A stretch of 64,000 nucleotides of DNA from Pseudonocardia oroxyli (GTDB lineage: Bacteria > Actinomycetota > Actinomycetes > Mycobacteriales > Pseudonocardiaceae): positions 372,001 through 436,000 of the forward strand of contig NZ_FNBE01000001.1 in assembly GCF_900102195.1 (NCBI RefSeq), in the 5' to 3' direction. Positions 5,076 through 61,986 of this stretch are shown here, in pieces. Position 1 is the first letter of the stretch; every line of letters begins with the position of its first letter. The notes under the pieces are model-generated. The model was not told where the DNA came from. It saw only the letters and a list, made by a program, of their open reading frames with translations, and made no database searches. The translations under genes and the position numbers were made by a program.

Positions 5076-5765
5076 GTGACCGCGCCGAGCAGAGAGACTC
5101 TCCCGCTCTTCCCGCTCGGGACGGTGCTGATGCCCGGCGCGCCGCTGCCCCTGCACATCTTCGAACCGCGCTACCGGCAGCTCACGGTCGACCTCGTGAC
5201 GGGTGCGGTGCCGAACAAGGAGTTCGGCGTCGTCGCTGTCCGGGAGGGGTTCGACACCGACCGCCACGGCATCGACGCCCTGGCCACCGTCGGGTGCTCG
5301 GCCCGGCTGCTCGACGTCCGCAGGCTCCCCGACGGCCGCTACGACGTGGTTACCGAGGGACGCCGCCGCTTCCGCCTGCTCGACCTCGACGACGGCAGCC
5401 ACGCCTACCTCTGCGGCACGGTCGAATGGCTGCCGGACACGGCCGAGGCGTCGGAGTCCGACGACCTCACCCGCATGCTGATGGGCTCGGCGCGGCGGGC
5501 GCACAAGGCCTACTGCACGGACGCGTGGAAGTCCGAGGACTGGGTGGAGCCGCGGGCGGTCGGCCCGGCCGAGCTGCCCCACGTCCTCGCCGCCGACTGC
5601 CTGCTCCCGCTCACCGACCGCCAGGCGATGCTGGAGGAGCTGGACCCGCTGGAGCGCCTGCGCCTGGTGCGCCGTCTGCTCGCCCGCGAGCGCGGCCTGC
5701 TCCGGGACCTGCGCGCGATCCCGGCCCCGACCGCCACCTTCGCCATCGACTCCAGCCCCAACTGA
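5076..5765 (+). CDS. LON peptidase substrate-binding domain protein (no protease domain)
   Basis: A 229-residue protein consisting only of the LON N-terminal domain. It begins [25 protein letters not shown], the hallmark opening of this family, and ends in a helical bundle ([24 protein letters not shown]). No AAA or Ser-Lys protease domain follows. Stand-alone members are common in actinobacteria and their role is unresolved. The start is GTG at 5076, with TACGGT at 5064-5069 6 nt before it, suggesting its own leaderless promoter although nrtR ends only 25 bp upstream. Its TGA lies inside the palindrome at 5761-5786. Confidence 0.85.
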
Positions 5766-5786
5766 CCGACCCGCGGGTCGGTCAGT
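5761..5786. terminator. Perfect 26-bp palindrome covering both convergent stop codons
   Basis: ACTGACCGACCCG is followed directly by its reverse complement CGGGTCGGTCAGT. The plus-strand LON gene stop (5763-5765) and the minus-strand PemK-like gene stop (5782-5784) both sit inside the arms. In RNA it gives a hairpin on either strand, so it is probably a shared bidirectional terminator. Confidence 0.7.
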
Positions 5787-56170: not shown

Positions 56171-56334
56171 GGCGTGTCTCCCAATCCGCCACCGCCGGGC
56201 CCGGTGATCCACGTCGCCGCCGGCAAGGCAGCCGGGCCGCCCTCATACCGGGCGTATTCGGGCGGTCCGGCAACGCCGCCGGCGGCGGCGTGGGCGCCGG
56301 GAGCGACGGCGGCGGATTGGGAGACACGTCCTAG
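56167..56334. mobile_element. 160-bp MITE with 20-bp terminal inverted repeats and CTAG target duplication
   Basis: The element 56171-56330 has ends GGCGTGTCTCCCAATCCGCC and its inverted copy (one mismatch). CTAG is repeated at 56167-56170 and 56331-56334. It encodes no transposase. The two halves are complementary along most of their length, with a central CCGCCC...GGGCGG turn, so it folds as one long hairpin. Four-base CTAG/CTAR-type targets are known for IS5-group elements; which transposase moves it is inference. Confidence 0.88.
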
Positions 56335-57521
56335 TGCCCCGTCCAGGACGCGCGGGGCAGGAAGGCGGGCTGCGAGGTCGGGTCGGGCTCGGCGTAGTAG
56401 CGGTGGAACACCCGGGTGGTGCTCCCCGACATCGGGGGCACGATCCAGCTCCAGTCCGCGGGACACGTGCGGCCCGCCCGTTCCTCCCGGGCCACGTGGA
56501 GGAGGAAGCGCTCCGACTCGCCGTGGTGGTCCGCCAGGCTCACCCCCGCCTCGTCGAAGGAGTGGTGGACGGCGCGGACGAGCTCCACGAGGGCCCGGTC
56601 CTTCCACAGCGTGCGGTCCGAGGACGTGTCCAGCCCCAGGCCGCGGGCGACGACGGGCAGCTGGTCGTAGCGGTCGACGTCGGCGAGGTTGCGGGCGCCG
56701 ATCTCGGTCCCCATGTAGTAGCCGTTGAAGGGCGCCGCCGGGTAGCGGACGCCCCCGATCACCAAGGTCATGTCGCTGATCGCGGGCACGGCGTGCCAGC
56801 GCAGGCCGAGATCACCGAACCAGGCGTGCTCCGGGTGGTGCAGCGGCACCTCGAGCACGGCGTCGGACGGCAGCGGGTGCACGACCCGTTCGCCCTGGCC
56901 GTCGGTGACGACCAGGGGCAGCACGTCGAAGCGCCCCCGCTCGGCCGGTGGCACCCAGCCGAGGCCGACGGCCTCGTCGGTCATCGCGACACCGCGCGGA
57001 TCCCCCCACACGCTCCCGTCGGGCCGGCGGTGACCCGCGTAGCGGATCAGCTGCTCGTTGTGGATGCGGGGGCCGCGGCGGTCGGGACCGTCGGGCGCGA
57101 AGACGGTGATGGTCGAGCGGATCCGGCCACCGCGCGTGCAGTCGCGCAGGTGGGCGACGCACTCCTCGGCGATCTCGCGCGCCCCGGTCACCGTCCTGCG
57201 GTCCCGGACGTGCAGCCCGTTCCAGTAGAGCCGCCCGATGCAGCGGGCCGAGTTCCGCCACGCCACCCGGGCGCCGAAGCCGAGCTCGTCGCCGGTGTGG
57301 CGGTAGGTGCCGGTGGCGTCGATCTCGGCGAGCACCTGGTCGACCCGGGCGTGCAGACCGTGTCCCGCTCGGGTCTCCGCATGGAACTGTTCGAGGAACT
57401 CGCGGGCCGCGGCGGGGTCGACGCCCGCCGTGGGCTCGGGGCGGCGCGGGGGCGGGACGGTGCGCGGCGCGGCGGGGCGCGCGCATCGTCCGGCCGGGGT
57501 GAGATGAGCGGCCGTGGTCAC
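56331..57521 (-). CDS. nos: Bacterial nitric oxide synthase oxygenase
   Basis: A 396-residue NOS oxygenase domain protein with no reductase. WRNSARCIGRLYW carries the haem-thiolate Cys94. RWHAVPAISDMTLVIGGVRYPAAPFNGYYMGTEIGARN holds the arginine-binding glutamate in the YMGTEIG stretch. The tail includes CPADWSWIVPPMSGSTTRVFHRYY, the pterin/dimer region. It oxidises L-arginine to citrulline and NO. The N-terminal ~35 residues are an extra Pro/Arg-rich extension. GTG 57521 has AAGGA upstream. Last gene of an operon with a globin; its TAG lies in the MITE's CTAG. Confidence 0.93.
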   Translation of the reverse strand: MTTAAHLTPAGRCARPAAPRTVPPPRRPEPTAGVDPAAAREFLEQFHAETRAGHGLHARVDQVLAEIDATGTYRHTGDELGFGARVAWRNSARCIGRLYWNGLHVRDRRTVTGAREIAEECVAHLRDCTRGGRIRSTITVFAPDGPDRRGPRIHNEQLIRYAGHRRPDGSVWGDPRGVAMTDEAVGLGWVPPAERGRFDVLPLVVTDGQGERVVHPLPSDAVLEVPLHHPEHAWFGDLGLRWHAVPAISDMTLVIGGVRYPAAPFNGYYMGTEIGARNLADVDRYDQLPVVARGLGLDTSSDRTLWKDRALVELVRAVHHSFDEAGVSLADHHGESERFLLHVAREERAGRTCPADWSWIVPPMSGSTTRVFHRYYAEPDPTSQPAFLPRASWTGH

Positions 57522-57636
57522 AGCTGTCCTTCCGGCTGTCGTGCAGGGGAGGGCGGGAGCCGCCCCCGGGGGGCGGCTCCGACGTCATGTCGCCCTCGAG
57601 CGGGCGCACCCGGCGCGGTCGAGGCGATCGCGCGGG

Positions 57637-58245
57637 TCAGGCTCCGGAGAGGCGCCGCGCGCGTCGCGGGACCCGCTGGTCGTGGCGGGGCGACGGGCGG
57701 GGGCTCGGGATCGCCGCGAGCGGCTGCGGGTGCGGCCGTTCGGCGGCGATGGCCGCTCGAGCGCCCCGGATCATGTGGCCGGTGACCCACTGGCACAGGG
57801 AGATCCAGCTGGAGCTGAGGCGGCTGCTGTAGTCCCAGCCCGCCACCTCGCGCACGGCCCGGGTCAGCGCGTGCGCGATGTACAGGTAGTGGTCGGGCTC
57901 CACGGCGTAGCGCTCGTAGTGGTCCTGGCCCAACCGGTACAGCGCGATCTCGAGCTCGGCCGTGTCCATGCGCACGAGCCGCGCGATCGCGTCGAGCAGG
58001 GTGTCGGTCATCTTCTGCATCTGCTCCGACATGTCGTCGGCGAACATCGCCCGCGTCGCGGGGGCCATCTCGAACAGGTACCGGTAGAAGACCTCCGCCA
58101 ACCGCACCGGACGATCGGCCACGGCGTGCAGCGATCCTTCGACCGCCGCCATCACCTCGCGGCTCGGCGTCGATTCGAGCCAGGGGCCGAACCGGTCCGC
58201 CCGCGAAGTCGCGGCGTGCTGCCGCTGTTCTGAGTTCTCGATCAC
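57637..58245 (-). CDS. Single-domain globin
   Basis: 202 residues. A globin fold spans about 30-165: VFYRYLFEMAPATRAMFADDMSEQMQKM (helices B-E), and ALYRLGQDHYERYAVEPDHYLYIAHALTRAV, where the LGxxHxxY-like segment holds the proximal His. SSSWISLCQWVTGHMIRGA is the last helix. The C-terminal ~40 residues are Arg/Pro-rich. There is no flavin domain, so NO dioxygenation would need a separate reductase. It lies directly upstream of nos in the same operon, which suggests NO handling (inference). GTG 58245 with AAGGA upstream. Confidence 0.85.
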   Translation of the reverse strand: MIENSEQRQHAATSRADRFGPWLESTPSREVMAAVEGSLHAVADRPVRLAEVFYRYLFEMAPATRAMFADDMSEQMQKMTDTLLDAIARLVRMDTAELEIALYRLGQDHYERYAVEPDHYLYIAHALTRAVREVAGWDYSSRLSSSWISLCQWVTGHMIRGARAAIAAERPHPQPLAAIPSPRPSPRHDQRVPRRARRLSGA

Positions 58246-58330
58246 TGAGGGGTTCCTTCTCTCGACGCGCGGCTGTGCGCGCTCGGCTTCCGGCAGGCGG
58301 TGCCCACCGGTGGGCTCCTGCCCGACCCGG

Positions 58331-60043
58331 TCACGAGTCGCGGTCCGCGCGGACGCGGGAGCGGGCCAGGTCGACGGCGACGCCCAGGTCGTCGACCACG
58401 TGGGCCCCGTCGACGGTCTCCAGCGTGCCGGTCCGGCCGAGCAGCCCGCGGTGCTCCGCGCGCAACCCCTTGAACAGCACGGTCGTCCCCATCGCGTCCA
58501 GCGCCAGGACCAGCTCGCGCCGCCTCGCGCGCGACAGCGGCGCCCACCGCGAGGCCGTCCCGGGCCCGGTGCGGCCCGAGGACGGTGAGATCGCGGTGTT
58601 CCGCCTGCAGGGCGCCCTCTTCTTCGGCGCTGCGGAACGGATCTGCGACGGCGTGCTGCGCCGGTGTGTCGCGGACCGGCCGCAGGTGGTGGTGCTGCGG
58701 ATGTCCGGGCTGTCCATGGTGGACGCCTCGGGCGGTCGGGCGCTGCGCAGCGCCAGGAGGGCCGCCACCACGAGCCCGATCTCGATCGCCTGCACGAGAT
58801 CGAGCACGACCGTGAGCAGCGCGGTCACCCCGAAGGACAGCGCCGCCGACGGACCCGAGCGCAGCACCGCCCGCACGGTCGGCAGCGACACCATCCGCAC
58901 GCTCGTCACCAGCAGTACGCCCGCCAACGCGGCCGAGGGGATGCGCGACACGGGACCGGTCGCCAGGTAGACGACGCCCAGGATCACCGCGGCGTGCACC
59001 ACGGCCGCCAGCCGGGTACGGGCACCGGACCGGACGTTCACCGCCGTCCTGGCGATCGCCCCGGTTGCCGGCATGCCGCCGAACAGGCCGCCCGCCACCG
59101 AGGCCAGCCCCTGGCCGACCAGCTCCCGGTCCGGGTCGTAGGCCCCGCGGGCGCCGGCCATCGAGGCCGCGACCCGGGCGGACAGCAGGGACTCGACCGC
59201 GGCGAGCGCGGCCACCGCCAGCGCCGCGCCCAGCAGCGGGGACGAGGCGGCCGGGTCGAGCGTGGGCAGCGTCGGGGACGGCAGTCCCTGGGGCAGCACG
59301 CCGATGCGGCGCAGCGGAGCGTGGGCCACCTCGGCGGCCACGGTGACGACCACGACCGCGACCAGGGAGCCGGGCAGGCCGGGACGCAGGCGCGGGGCGC
59401 CGACCATGATCACGGCGACGACCGCCACGGTGCCCACCGACCAGAGCAGCGGCGCGAGGTCCGGCCCGGAGAACGCCCGACCGAGCGCGGTCCACGCCGT
59501 CGGGAGGACGCCGTGACCGGGCTCGGCGGCCAGGCCCAACGCCGCCGGGACCTGCTGGAGGCCGATCACGCAGGCGATCCCGACGGTGAACCCCTCCACC
59601 ACCGGCCACGGCAGGTTCGACACCAACCCGCCGAGCCGCAGCACCCCGGCGAGGATCACGAACAGCCCGGCCAGGGCGGAGACCACGGCCACCGCGCCCA
59701 CGCCGTGCGCCGCGACGATCGGGGCCAGCACCACCGCCATCGCCCCGGTCGGACCGGAGACCTGCAGGCCGGACCCGCCGAAGACGGCGGCGACGACGCC
59801 CGCCACGACCGCCGTGACCATGCCGGCCGCGGGTCCCACCCCGGCGCTCTCCCCGAAGGCGAGGGCCAGCGGGAGCGCCACCACACCGACGGTCACACCG
59901 GCGACGAGATCGGCGCGCACGGTGCGCGGCCGCAGGTCGTAGTCGCCGCGCCGCGGCAGCAGCGCGCGCAGTCTCCGGCCCGCGACCGCCCAGGGTCGAC
60001 CGGGCCACCGACCGCGCAGGGTGCCGGTCGGGGCGTCAGGCAC
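58331..60043 (-). CDS. SulP-family anion transporter with scrambled STAS region
   Basis: 570 residues. Residues about 1-428 are a normal SulP membrane domain (LQVSGPTGAMAVVLAP, NVRSGARTRLAAVVHAA). Residues about 504-570 are the normal end of a STAS domain (RRRELVLALDAMGTTVLFKGLRAEHRGLLGRTG). Between them, 75 residues of Ser/Thr/Arg/Pro-rich nonsense occur, because that DNA is inverted: the missing STAS core reads on the plus strand. The frame stays open, so a transporter with a broken STAS could be made. GTG 60043 overlaps the preceding gene by 8 bp. Confidence 0.85.
   Translation of the reverse strand: MPDAPTGTLRGRWPGRPWAVAGRRLRALLPRRGDYDLRPRTVRADLVAGVTVGVVALPLALAFGESAGVGPAAGMVTAVVAGVVAAVFGGSGLQVSGPTGAMAVVLAPIVAAHGVGAVAVVSALAGLFVILAGVLRLGGLVSNLPWPVVEGFTVGIACVIGLQQVPAALGLAAEPGHGVLPTAWTALGRAFSGPDLAPLLWSVGTVAVVAVIMVGAPRLRPGLPGSLVAVVVVTVAAEVAHAPLRRIGVLPQGLPSPTLPTLDPAASSPLLGAALAVAALAAVESLLSARVAASMAGARGAYDPDRELVGQGLASVAGGLFGGMPATGAIARTAVNVRSGARTRLAAVVHAAVILGVVYLATGPVSRIPSAALAGVLLVTSVRMVSLPTVRAVLRSGPSAALSFGVTALLTVVLDLVQAIEIGLVVAALLALRSARPPEASTMDSPDIRSTTTCGRSATHRRSTPSQIRSAAPKKRAPCRRNTAISPSSGRTGPGTASRWAPLSRARRRELVLALDAMGTTVLFKGLRAEHRGLLGRTGTLETVDGAHVVDDLGVAVDLARSRVRADRDS
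58530..58750 (+). other. Inverted internal segment of sulP carrying the STAS core
   Basis: The plus strand reads EDGEIAVFRLQGALFFGAAERI...RPQVVVLRMSGLSMVDASGGRAL (58579-58746), an unmistakable STAS core of SulP proteins, opposite to the surrounding gene. Reversing this segment restores the normal order membrane domain-STAS core-GTTVLFKGL. One edge falls at the perfect palindrome GGCGCTGCGCAGCGCC (58739-58754). The other edge, near 58530, is not sharply defined. Confidence 0.85.
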
Positions 60044-60803
60044 CGCCGAGACCCTGCCGGACCGCTCGACGCACGATCTCCGCGGTGCGCTGATCGTGCA
60101 GGGCCGCCGACCAGTCCCGCCCCACACCCGCGGTCAGGACGGCGTCCACGACGTCACGCAGCAGCCGCGCGGGCGGCTCGCCGCGCAGCGAGGTGCGCGC
60201 GTCGGCGAGCCCGGCGAGGAGGGCCGGGGCGAGGGCGACATCCGGATCGAACCGGTCCGCCTCGATGACCGAGCCGACGGCGCAGTCCTGGTCGACCCCG
60301 GCCGCCCGCACGCGACCGATCAGGTCGATGACGACGTCGACGTCACGGACCGCGGTTCGGAGCGGGAGCCACCGGTCGTCCTCGACGTTCCACAGGGACA
60401 GGTCCGCGACGCCGCAGGCCAGCAGCAGTGGCACCAGCGCGCCGGCGCCCCGGGCGCCGACGACCAGGGTGCGGGAGAAGCGCGGGTCGCGCTGCACGCT
60501 CCGGAGGTGCACCAGCGCACCCAGGCACAGCCCGACCGCGCGGGCCGCCCCGCGGGTGACCACCGGCCCGGGCAGCAGGGTCGCCAGCGAGCGGGCGGCC
60601 ACGTCCGCCTCGGCGCCCTCGGCCGCCACGTAGGCGAGGACCCCCTCGCGCTCCACCAGTGAGGCGGACAGGCCCGCTCCGTTGCCCAGCTCGGCCGCGG
60701 GGAGCGACAGGGTCGAGCCTGTCGTCCCGATGCCCAGGTCCGGCGGCGAACCCCCCTCGTGATCGGTCAGGACCACGAGGCTCAGGTCCTCGCATCGACT
60801 CAC
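60036..60803 (-). CDS. Unrecognised protein with a Rossmann-like core
   Basis: A 255-residue protein, first gene after the ArsR gene in the sulP-globin-nos operon. The middle segment RTLVVGARGAGALVPLLLACGVADLSLWNVEDDRW (about 121-155) looks like a dinucleotide-binding beta-alpha-beta unit with GxRGAG, followed by DVDVVIDLIG. No catalytic motif is evident and I do not recognise the family. GTG 60803 has GAGGGGGG 7-8 nt upstream; an earlier in-frame start at 60836 lies in the promoter and is rejected. Its stop overlaps the sulP start by 8 bp. Confidence 0.7.
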   Translation of the reverse strand: MSRCEDLSLVVLTDHEGGSPPDLGIGTTGSTLSLPAAELGNGAGLSASLVEREGVLAYVAAEGAEADVAARSLATLLPGPVVTRGAARAVGLCLGALVHLRSVQRDPRFSRTLVVGARGAGALVPLLLACGVADLSLWNVEDDRWLPLRTAVRDVDVVIDLIGRVRAAGVDQDCAVGSVIEADRFDPDVALAPALLAGLADARTSLRGEPPARLLRDVVDAVLTAGVGRDWSAALHDQRTAEIVRRAVRQGLGGA

Positions 60804-60906
60804 CGGCACCCCCCTCAACCGGTTTAGTATATGCAAATAACTGCAAACTGAGGCAAGCCGACCGGGTCACGGAGCGCCCGACGACACTGAGCGGCGGACT
60901 CGCGCG
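60804..60906 (-). promoter_or_regulatory. AT-rich promoter/operator of the orf-sulP-globin-nos operon
   Basis: A conspicuous AT island (60822-60847) in GC-rich DNA. On the minus strand two TTTGCA repeats lie exactly 10 bp apart (60842-60847 and 60832-60837), immediately upstream of TATACT (60826-60831), a near-consensus -10 box. Start of transcription is expected about 60819. One-turn spacing suggests a bound regulator, most simply the ArsR protein encoded just upstream. Confidence 0.65.
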
Positions 60907-61341
60907 TCAGCCCTCGGTCGCCCGCACTCCGTCGGCCACCGGCGGGCGACCACGTAGGTCGTCGAGCAGCTCGACCTGCCCCGCCAGCACGCCGGTCAGG
61001 ATCGACCGGGCCACGTCGAGCAGCTGCTCGACCTGCGGATGGGCGAGCGAGTAGACGACGGTGGAGCCCTCACGGTTGGCCCGCACCAGACCCGAACGCC
61101 GCAGGACCGCCAGCTGCTGCGACAGACTGGCCGGCTCGGTGTCGATCACCTTGAGCATCTCGGCCACCGCGTGGTCGCGCAGGCTCAGCAGCTCCAGGAC
61201 CCGGATGCGCACCGGGTGCCCCAGGGTCTTGAAGAACTCGGCCTTGACCCGGTACAACGGCGCGACCGTGACCCGGGGGACGTCCGTCCCCGCGTGGGGT
61301 GCACCGACTTCCGTCTCCGACACCGGGTCGTTCTCCGCCAT
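60907..61341 (-). CDS. ArsR-family winged-helix regulator
   Basis: A 144-residue protein. The winged helix spans about 33-105: LYRVKAEFFKTLGHPVRIRVLELLSLRDHAVAEML, then TEPASLSQQLAVLRRSGLVRANREGSTVVYSLAHPQVEQLL. There is no CxC near the recognition helix and no obvious Cys ligand set, so metal sensing by the classic ArsR/SmtB sites is unlikely. It may sense thiol, redox or NO state (inference). ATG 61341 with GGAGACG upstream. Same strand and immediately upstream of the NOS operon. Confidence 0.88.
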   Translation of the reverse strand: MAENDPVSETEVGAPHAGTDVPRVTVAPLYRVKAEFFKTLGHPVRIRVLELLSLRDHAVAEMLKVIDTEPASLSQQLAVLRRSGLVRANREGSTVVYSLAHPQVEQLLDVARSILTGVLAGQVELLDDLRGRPPVADGVRATEG

Positions 61342-61455
61342 CGTCTCCGTACGTCCTGGTCGCTGGTCGGCCGGAGGCTATCAGGACCGTCCGCCGTGGC
61401 CGGCGTCTCAGGCGGCGGTGATGCCTTCGGGGCCGATCAGTGGTTCATTGCCCGG

Positions 61456-61986
61456 ATGAGCACTGAGCTGGGCCCCGAGGGGGGCAACGAGGAGCTGCTG
61501 CGCCGCTACGAGGCGGGCGGCGGCCATCTCGCCGCGGCCAACGCCGAGGGACTCGCGGTCCCCCCGTCGCTGAAGATCGCCATCGTGACCTGCATGGACT
61601 CGCGCATCGACGTGTTCGCGCTGTTCGGCATGGCGCTGGGCGAGGCGCACGTGCTGCGCAACGCGGGCGGCGTGGTCACCGACGACGTCATCCGCTCGCT
61701 GACGATCAGCCAGCGCAAGCTGCACACCAGGGACGTCCTGCTCGTGCAGCACAGCGGCTGCGGGCTCGCCACCTTCACCGACGAGGAGTTCTCCGAGGAG
61801 CTGGCGGAGGAGACCGGGATCCGCCCGCCCTGGCGGACGCACGCCTTCCACGACCCGGTGGTCAGCGTCCGCCGCGGGATCCGACAGCTGCGCCACGACC
61901 CCTTCCTGCACCCCGACACCCGGGTGCGGGGTTTCGTCCTGGACATCGAGACCTTCAACCTCGACGAGGTCGAGAGCCCCGACTGA
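61456..61986 (+). CDS. Beta-carbonic anhydrase
   Basis: A 176-residue zinc enzyme interconverting CO2 and bicarbonate. IAIVTCMDSRIDVFALFG gives the first Cys and the Asp-Arg dyad; VLLVQHSGCGLATF gives the His and second Cys. VLRNAGGVVTDDVIRSLTISQRKL is typical of the small clade resembling mycobacterial Rv1284. ATG 61456; TTCATT at 61444-61449 lies 6 nt upstream. Divergent from the ArsR gene. Confidence 0.92.
   Translation: MSTELGPEGGNEELLRRYEAGGGHLAAANAEGLAVPPSLKIAIVTCMDSRIDVFALFGMALGEAHVLRNAGGVVTDDVIRSLTISQRKLHTRDVLLVQHSGCGLATFTDEEFSEELAEETGIRPPWRTHAFHDPVVSVRRGIRQLRHDPFLHPDTRVRGFVLDIETFNLDEVESPD

Follow-up and report, generated by a model that had tools for sequence, protein, structure and literature searches.

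An inversion of about 226 bp within a SulP transporter gene of Pseudonocardia oroxyli places the STAS core on the opposite strand

A segment of about 226 bp within a sulP gene of Pseudonocardia oroxyli is inverted relative to its orthologues, with the core of the STAS domain encoded on the strand opposite to that of the membrane domain. We consider it probable that this arose as a single, spontaneous and derived microinversion, which left a transporter that is STAS-less or weakened. The inversion, its direction, its exactness and the open frame across it are all read from the assembled sequence. The window is the whole 64,000-nucleotide stretch of DNA that was analysed, and the following features are given in its coordinates.

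58331..58519, minus strand: STAS tail in its original orientation and frame, ending at the sulP stop codon
58517..58523: left breakpoint zone with the common CG at 58518-58519, placed by sequence and orthologue spacing
58520..58745, plus strand: inverted segment, placed by the PF01740 match and by order and spacing in orthologues
58739..58754: palindrome GGCGCTGCGCAGCGCC (16 bp, perfect), with the right breakpoint at its centre
58746..58747: right breakpoint with the common CG core, placed by sequence and orthologue spacing
58746..60022, minus strand: SulP membrane (transport) part, intact, identified by PF00916 and by a predicted fold that matches SLC26 structures

Results

Layout of the gene

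An open minus-strand frame extends from 58331 to about 60127 with the SulP membrane domain encoded first, the true start of sulP lying upstream, between about 60022 and 60127. The region 58760-60067 matches PF00916 (Sulfate_transp; E = 9e-68), as expected for a SulP/SLC26 membrane domain. The minus frame reads as SulP up to ...VVAALLALR (...EIGLVVAALLALR), leaves the family, and resumes at ELVLALDAMGTTVLFKGL; between EIGLVVAALLALR and ELVLALDAMGTTVLFKGL the reading is a basic, S/T/P/R-rich stretch of 78 aa with a net charge of +14 and 10% VILMFWC. The C-terminal STAS domain of SulP/SLC26 proteins is not in the same frame here, the present minus-strand reading as a whole giving no STAS match in a Pfam search, and the core lies on the plus strand, where a query spanning 58536-58769 matched PF01740 (STAS) with E = 7.1e-11 and 42.3 bits against a cut-off of 22.6. 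The core itself is encoded by 58524-58745 of the plus strand (74 aa), with coding-like GC contents of 82, 53 and 93% at the three codon positions, and its translation is 36-63% identical to orthologous STAS cores (best E 1.2e-18). The remaining tail shows 30-48% identity to orthologue STAS tails where a real match was found, and taken alone (58331-58533) matched no Pfam family. The first-pass annotation had proposed that ~220 bp are inverted within the gene and that the plus strand there reads a SulP-STAS core, and both points are borne out by the PF01740 match and by the orthologue order described below.

An independent plus-strand STAS gene was considered as an alternative and set aside. The plus-strand ORF 58275-58970 is open, with in-frame starts listed at 58425, 58470, 58569 and 58596. 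Inspection by eye gave a possible, weak ribosome site (GGTGAG) for 58596 alone; a start there would remove the first 24 residues of the STAS core.

The gene sits in a cluster (56331-61986) that also includes a carbonic-anhydrase-like gene, an arsR-type regulator, a gene for an uncharacterised 266-aa protein, a globin and an NO-synthase oxygenase. The 266-aa protein (60036-60836, minus strand) lies between arsR and sulP, has no Pfam match at E 0.001, and by eye is absent from the corresponding place in the orthologous loci L005 and L115. In these two loci an arsR-like gene adjoins sulP, and the linkage of sulP orthologues to globin/nos genes that had been supposed was not seen in their flanks of 1-1.5 kb (again by eye).

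Direction and exactness of the inversion

Orthologues were collected by a genome scan which at least 574 stretches passed, of which the best 80 were kept as named loci. One ORF carries the membrane part and the STAS core collinearly in 72 of the 80, and alignment showed the same for two more (L081 and L092). Five (L100, L101, L104, L106 and L113) are STAS-less, having PF00916 without PF01740; in these actinobacterial contigs SulP ends directly after the membrane domain. In L089, a sulP on a Mycobacterium MAG contig (2933-4231), the frame breaks just after the membrane part, with the STAS core match continuing on the same strand, and L047, one of the 72, runs off its contig edge. These seven named loci, each below 500 aa, were excluded from the alignment, which thus comprised 80 intact orthologues (73 named, 7 unnamed) and, as separate pieces, the three parts of the window gene.

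The segment lies on the coding strand in all 80 aligned orthologues, with two residues between membrane part and core and one between core and tail in every one; reversing the window segment restores the family order, as had been claimed. The right junction of the window has 2 bases outside the aligned pieces and the left has 7, making up the 9 expected for the three spacer residues, which identifies a pure, length-conserving and derived inversion, as would be expected of a spontaneous microinversion. The ends, put at 58530-58750 in the first-pass annotation, proved imprecise whilst the inversion itself stood; refined by hand they are 58520-58745, or equally 58519-58746 or 58518-58747, the ambiguity of 2 bases arising because CG is common to both breakpoints.

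A comparison with orthologues had been suggested as a check on the order, and none of those read or aligned has the inverted form, all 80 in the alignment being in the ancestral order. Among the best 80 named loci a search with the core returned no opposite-strand match at a meaningful score: minus-strand noise appeared in L037, L099 and L111 (E of at least 129), and no match at all in L098 or the five STAS-less loci. L037, read directly, has the normal order, and L098, L099 and L111 are collinear in the ORF check. Within the genus, 62 genomes including the window's own were searched and all gave some match, mostly short; the four best besides its own (75, 73, 68 and 67% DNA identity) were read and are all in the ancestral order. 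In a wider search 25 of 31 genomes matched, and the three best besides the window's own, all from outside the genus (L005-L007), were read and again have the ancestral order, the remainder being at most 43% identical. In a genome from another family of the same order, sulP is 77-81% identical to its six best named loci, all from Mycobacterium or Mycolicibacterium, and the window would accordingly lie outside that group.

Rarity in the contig and the possibility of an artefact

A first frame plot of the window alone gave 23 islands, many of them gene-sized or of small margin and the sulP segment among them, and was superseded by a stricter strand-flip scan. This covered 464 kb, made up of the window and a further twenty 20-kb pieces from its contig, and 179 coding-like, stop-free ORFs of at least 300 codons, with islands of 30-160 codons, and returned the sulP case only (58553-58699); since a stop-free ORF is required, flips creating a stop are missed by it.

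That only one case was found among these ORFs weighs against an assembly or library artefact, in which the true genome order would be normal and the segment flipped in the assembly. The contig is 527 kb long and its nearer end lies ~97 kb away from the site, and none of the usual signs of an artefact (an end repeat, Ns, an irregular length) was found: the ends carry no repeat long enough to mislead an assembler, the length is conserved to the base, and the window is without Ns. The long STAS branches described below would, for an artefact, be a coincidence. The genome assembly does consist of 52 contigs, and the inverted core is nearly intact at conserved sites, as an artefact would leave it. 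Taken together we regard an artefact as unlikely.

The open frame after the flip

The first-pass annotation had noted that the frame is open in both the present and the family orientation, and had taken this to indicate that the transporter could be made with or without STAS. The observation stands, whilst its significance does not: when the corresponding segment is flipped in 73 orthologues, 41 keep an open frame, as do 29 of the 51 with a GC3 of at least 0.85. Flips of 226 bp placed within the membrane part of the window gene left the frame open in 116 of 349 cases in the phase of the observed event; for the remaining two phases the figures were 103 of 350 and 339 of 350. An open frame after the flip is thus near to a coin-flip and, as an inversion also keeps the length, provides no argument for a switch.

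Junctions and the origin of the flip

Programmed invertons are flanked by inverted repeats at the crossover, and here these amount to CG, 2 bp of microhomology, which is near chance level. The repeat finder gave no pair joining both breakpoints in register among the 25 longest of 105 pairs, and the inverted register has 9 matching bases out of 28 around the CG cores. With the segment put back into ancestral order, the top local inverted match (score 22) is equalled or exceeded by 135 of 3000 control pairs drawn from sulP genes with equal spacing, and it lies off the crossover and out of register. A gapped 36-bp inverted match in the present order (58520-58555 / 58725-58760), with a score reached by 32 of 1000 controls, was rejected: by hand, its arms are out of line with the crossover by ~13 bp, and one of them spans the breakpoint, so that this arm is itself partly a product of the inversion.

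The lack of an inverted repeat beyond CG at the ends makes a programmed switch unlikely. A reversible intragenic inverton, producing the transporter with or without STAS, would be compatible with the frame open in both orientations, with the little-decayed core, and with the single match to PF00239 (resolvase family) in the genome. The resolvase-family gene is, however, on another contig (C39), roughly every second such flip would leave an open frame anyway, and no inverted orthologue was seen among those read or aligned. The invertible switch that had been proposed alongside a fixed rearrangement is accordingly very unlikely in this programmed form.

In its present form the right junction reads as a perfect palindrome of 16 bp; the 64 kb contain nine perfect palindromes of this length or more, the longest being one of 26 bp at 5761-5786. 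A palindrome at the crossover implies, when the flip is undone by hand, that the two breakpoints originally carried the 10-mer GGCGCTGCGC as a direct repeat, the two inferred ancestral breakpoints falling at the same base of it. We estimate the chance of a breakpoint exactly at the centre of such a palindrome at about 1 in 1000, which random breakage leaves unexplained, and 7-bp flank matches beside CG pairs are rare in controls (485 of 483,589 pairs; 34 of 137,656 in the same phase). A palindromic crossover core has no polarity, and directly repeated sites can therefore invert. These observations would fit a sequence-specific cut, or a serine-recombinase-like crossover, at the repeated 10-mer with its self-complementary CG core. 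The palindrome and the 10-mer were, however, noticed after the fact and are a hint only: the junction regions match poorly in the inverted register (see above), direct matching across the 80-base flanks does not exceed the control level (368 of 3000 controls score as high), and no enzyme was identified. GCGC is common, and avoidance of it as a restriction site was rejected for the window (1188 observed vs 1181 expected). We consider a crossover of this kind extremely improbable. The same holds for its further extension, an enzyme-made and possibly reversible inversion between direct GGCGCTGCGC sites that would toggle the STAS domain of a bicarbonate/sulfate-type transporter, for which the odds appear exceedingly poor; toggling of this type, having no conventional inverted repeats, would be invisible to inverton searches based on them.

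For a spontaneous microinversion, two breaks, or two template switches, may have occurred at GCGC motifs having only CG in common, and the segment would then have been turned round with no base lost or gained, the manner of breaking and joining being deduced from the junctions. The flip moved the STAS core to the non-coding strand, and sulP, still open in frame, should now encode the membrane domain, then a basic stretch predicted to be disordered, and last the orphaned STAS tail. Ku is present in the genome, which makes end joining possible. Break repair or template switching has been proposed for human-chimpanzee microinversions, microhomology-mediated repair being another suggested route (excerpts of PMC8755829). 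A second copy acting as donor was rejected, a search of the own genome with the STAS core finding only the sulP site (next best E = 0.06); the two other SulP genes in the genome are 31-38% identical.

Age of the flip

With the tree constrained to that of the membrane part, the terminal branches of the window lineage were long, at ratios of 2.79 for the core and 2.31 for the tail relative to the membrane part (medians 0.92 and 0.89), ranking 72 and 74 of 75. Few conserved core columns have changed (at 90% conservation 1 of 14, rank 31 of 81; at 80% conservation 3 of 20, rank 18 of 81), the inverted core retains a GC3 of 93%, and its identity to the ten nearest orthologues is not unusual (z -0.86, rank 18 of 81), that of the tail being low (z -2.13). 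The membrane part has changed at 8 of 136 columns conserved at 90% (rank 4 of 81), so that the window lineage is somewhat divergent there too. So little decay of the core implies that the flip is recent, or is sometimes reversed, or is not real; it also pulls against the long STAS branches, a signal which may predate the flip. The d2/d3 ratios of the core (0.54-0.67 in 5 comparisons with the window, 0.15-0.65 in 10 without it) are suggestive only. From these sequence comparisons there has been some relaxation of STAS with little decay of the core, and the flip is probably recent. The nearest orthologue has only 75% DNA identity and the event is thus not closely datable, a search of 249 sampled family genomes having provided no closer relative (best other 71%).

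Predicted structure and transport

AlphaFold2, run with the window protein and 30 orthologues, predicted the membrane domain mostly at pLDDT 75-96, whilst residues 431-500 were below 50 with the STAS sheet absent, and the tail was at 56-69; the inverted stretch has no true homologues in the alignment, so its low confidence is partly built in. In the control orthologue L082 the STAS domain folds, with block means of 76-91. Foldseek on the window model matched SLC26 structures, with AtSULTR4;1 (7lhv) first by E-value, the BicA membrane domain (6ki1) among the best covered (TM-score by target 0.87-0.88, 33% identity), and the SLC26Dg structures 5da0 and 5iof also found. A carbonic-anhydrase-like gene lies nearby (61444-61986, plus strand; PF00484, E = 7.3e-13, covering positions 2-73 of the 156 in the profile), which makes bicarbonate a plausible substrate.

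According to excerpts of PMC8298490, AtSULTR4;1 without STAS retains transport at a lower level, and the same source cites earlier studies in which deletion of STAS abolished transport. For SLC26Dg, deletion of STAS is described as compromising transport with the membrane fold and dimerisation unaltered (excerpts of PMC6497670). The product of the window gene is expected to be a weakened, STAS-less transporter, and in view of the earlier work on abolished transport sulP may here be dead, a pseudogene being possible.

Discussion

Intragenic invertons, in which inversion within a coding gene alters the product, were reportedly described by Chanin et al. in 2024, and an intragenic inversion changing a gene product is said to have been described by Milman et al. 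in 2023, both going by their titles. The sulP flip resembles programmed invertons in changing the product of a coding gene and differs in having no inverted repeats. It shares with human-chimpanzee microinversions that these are mostly pure inversions with no bases lost; those events, however, span 17-33 nt and lie between inverted repeats of 3-75 nt (excerpts of PMC8755829), whereas the sulP segment is of ~226 bp, in a bacterium, and has the 2-bp CG only. Compared with the SLC26 proteins AtSULTR4;1, BicA and SLC26Dg, the window gene has the same membrane fold and PF00916, but its STAS domain is broken. It is also unlike the five STAS-less orthologues, which stop past the membrane domain, in that it keeps an inverted remnant and the tail. 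A small search of the open-access literature found no description of an intragenic inversion in a SulP/STAS gene.

PhaseFinder-type workflows locate invertons by their inverted repeats (excerpts of PMC11892184) and count both orientations in reads. A coding-strand scan combined with orthologue order can find repeat-free inversions that such repeat-based inverton finders would miss, and if both orientations of the sulP segment occurred in reads this would be a new type of switch. The sulP gene of P. oroxyli provides a clean, polarised case in which a domain core has changed strand while the gene stays open in frame and, with many intact relatives in the gene family, it constitutes a natural STAS-loss test for SulP transporters.
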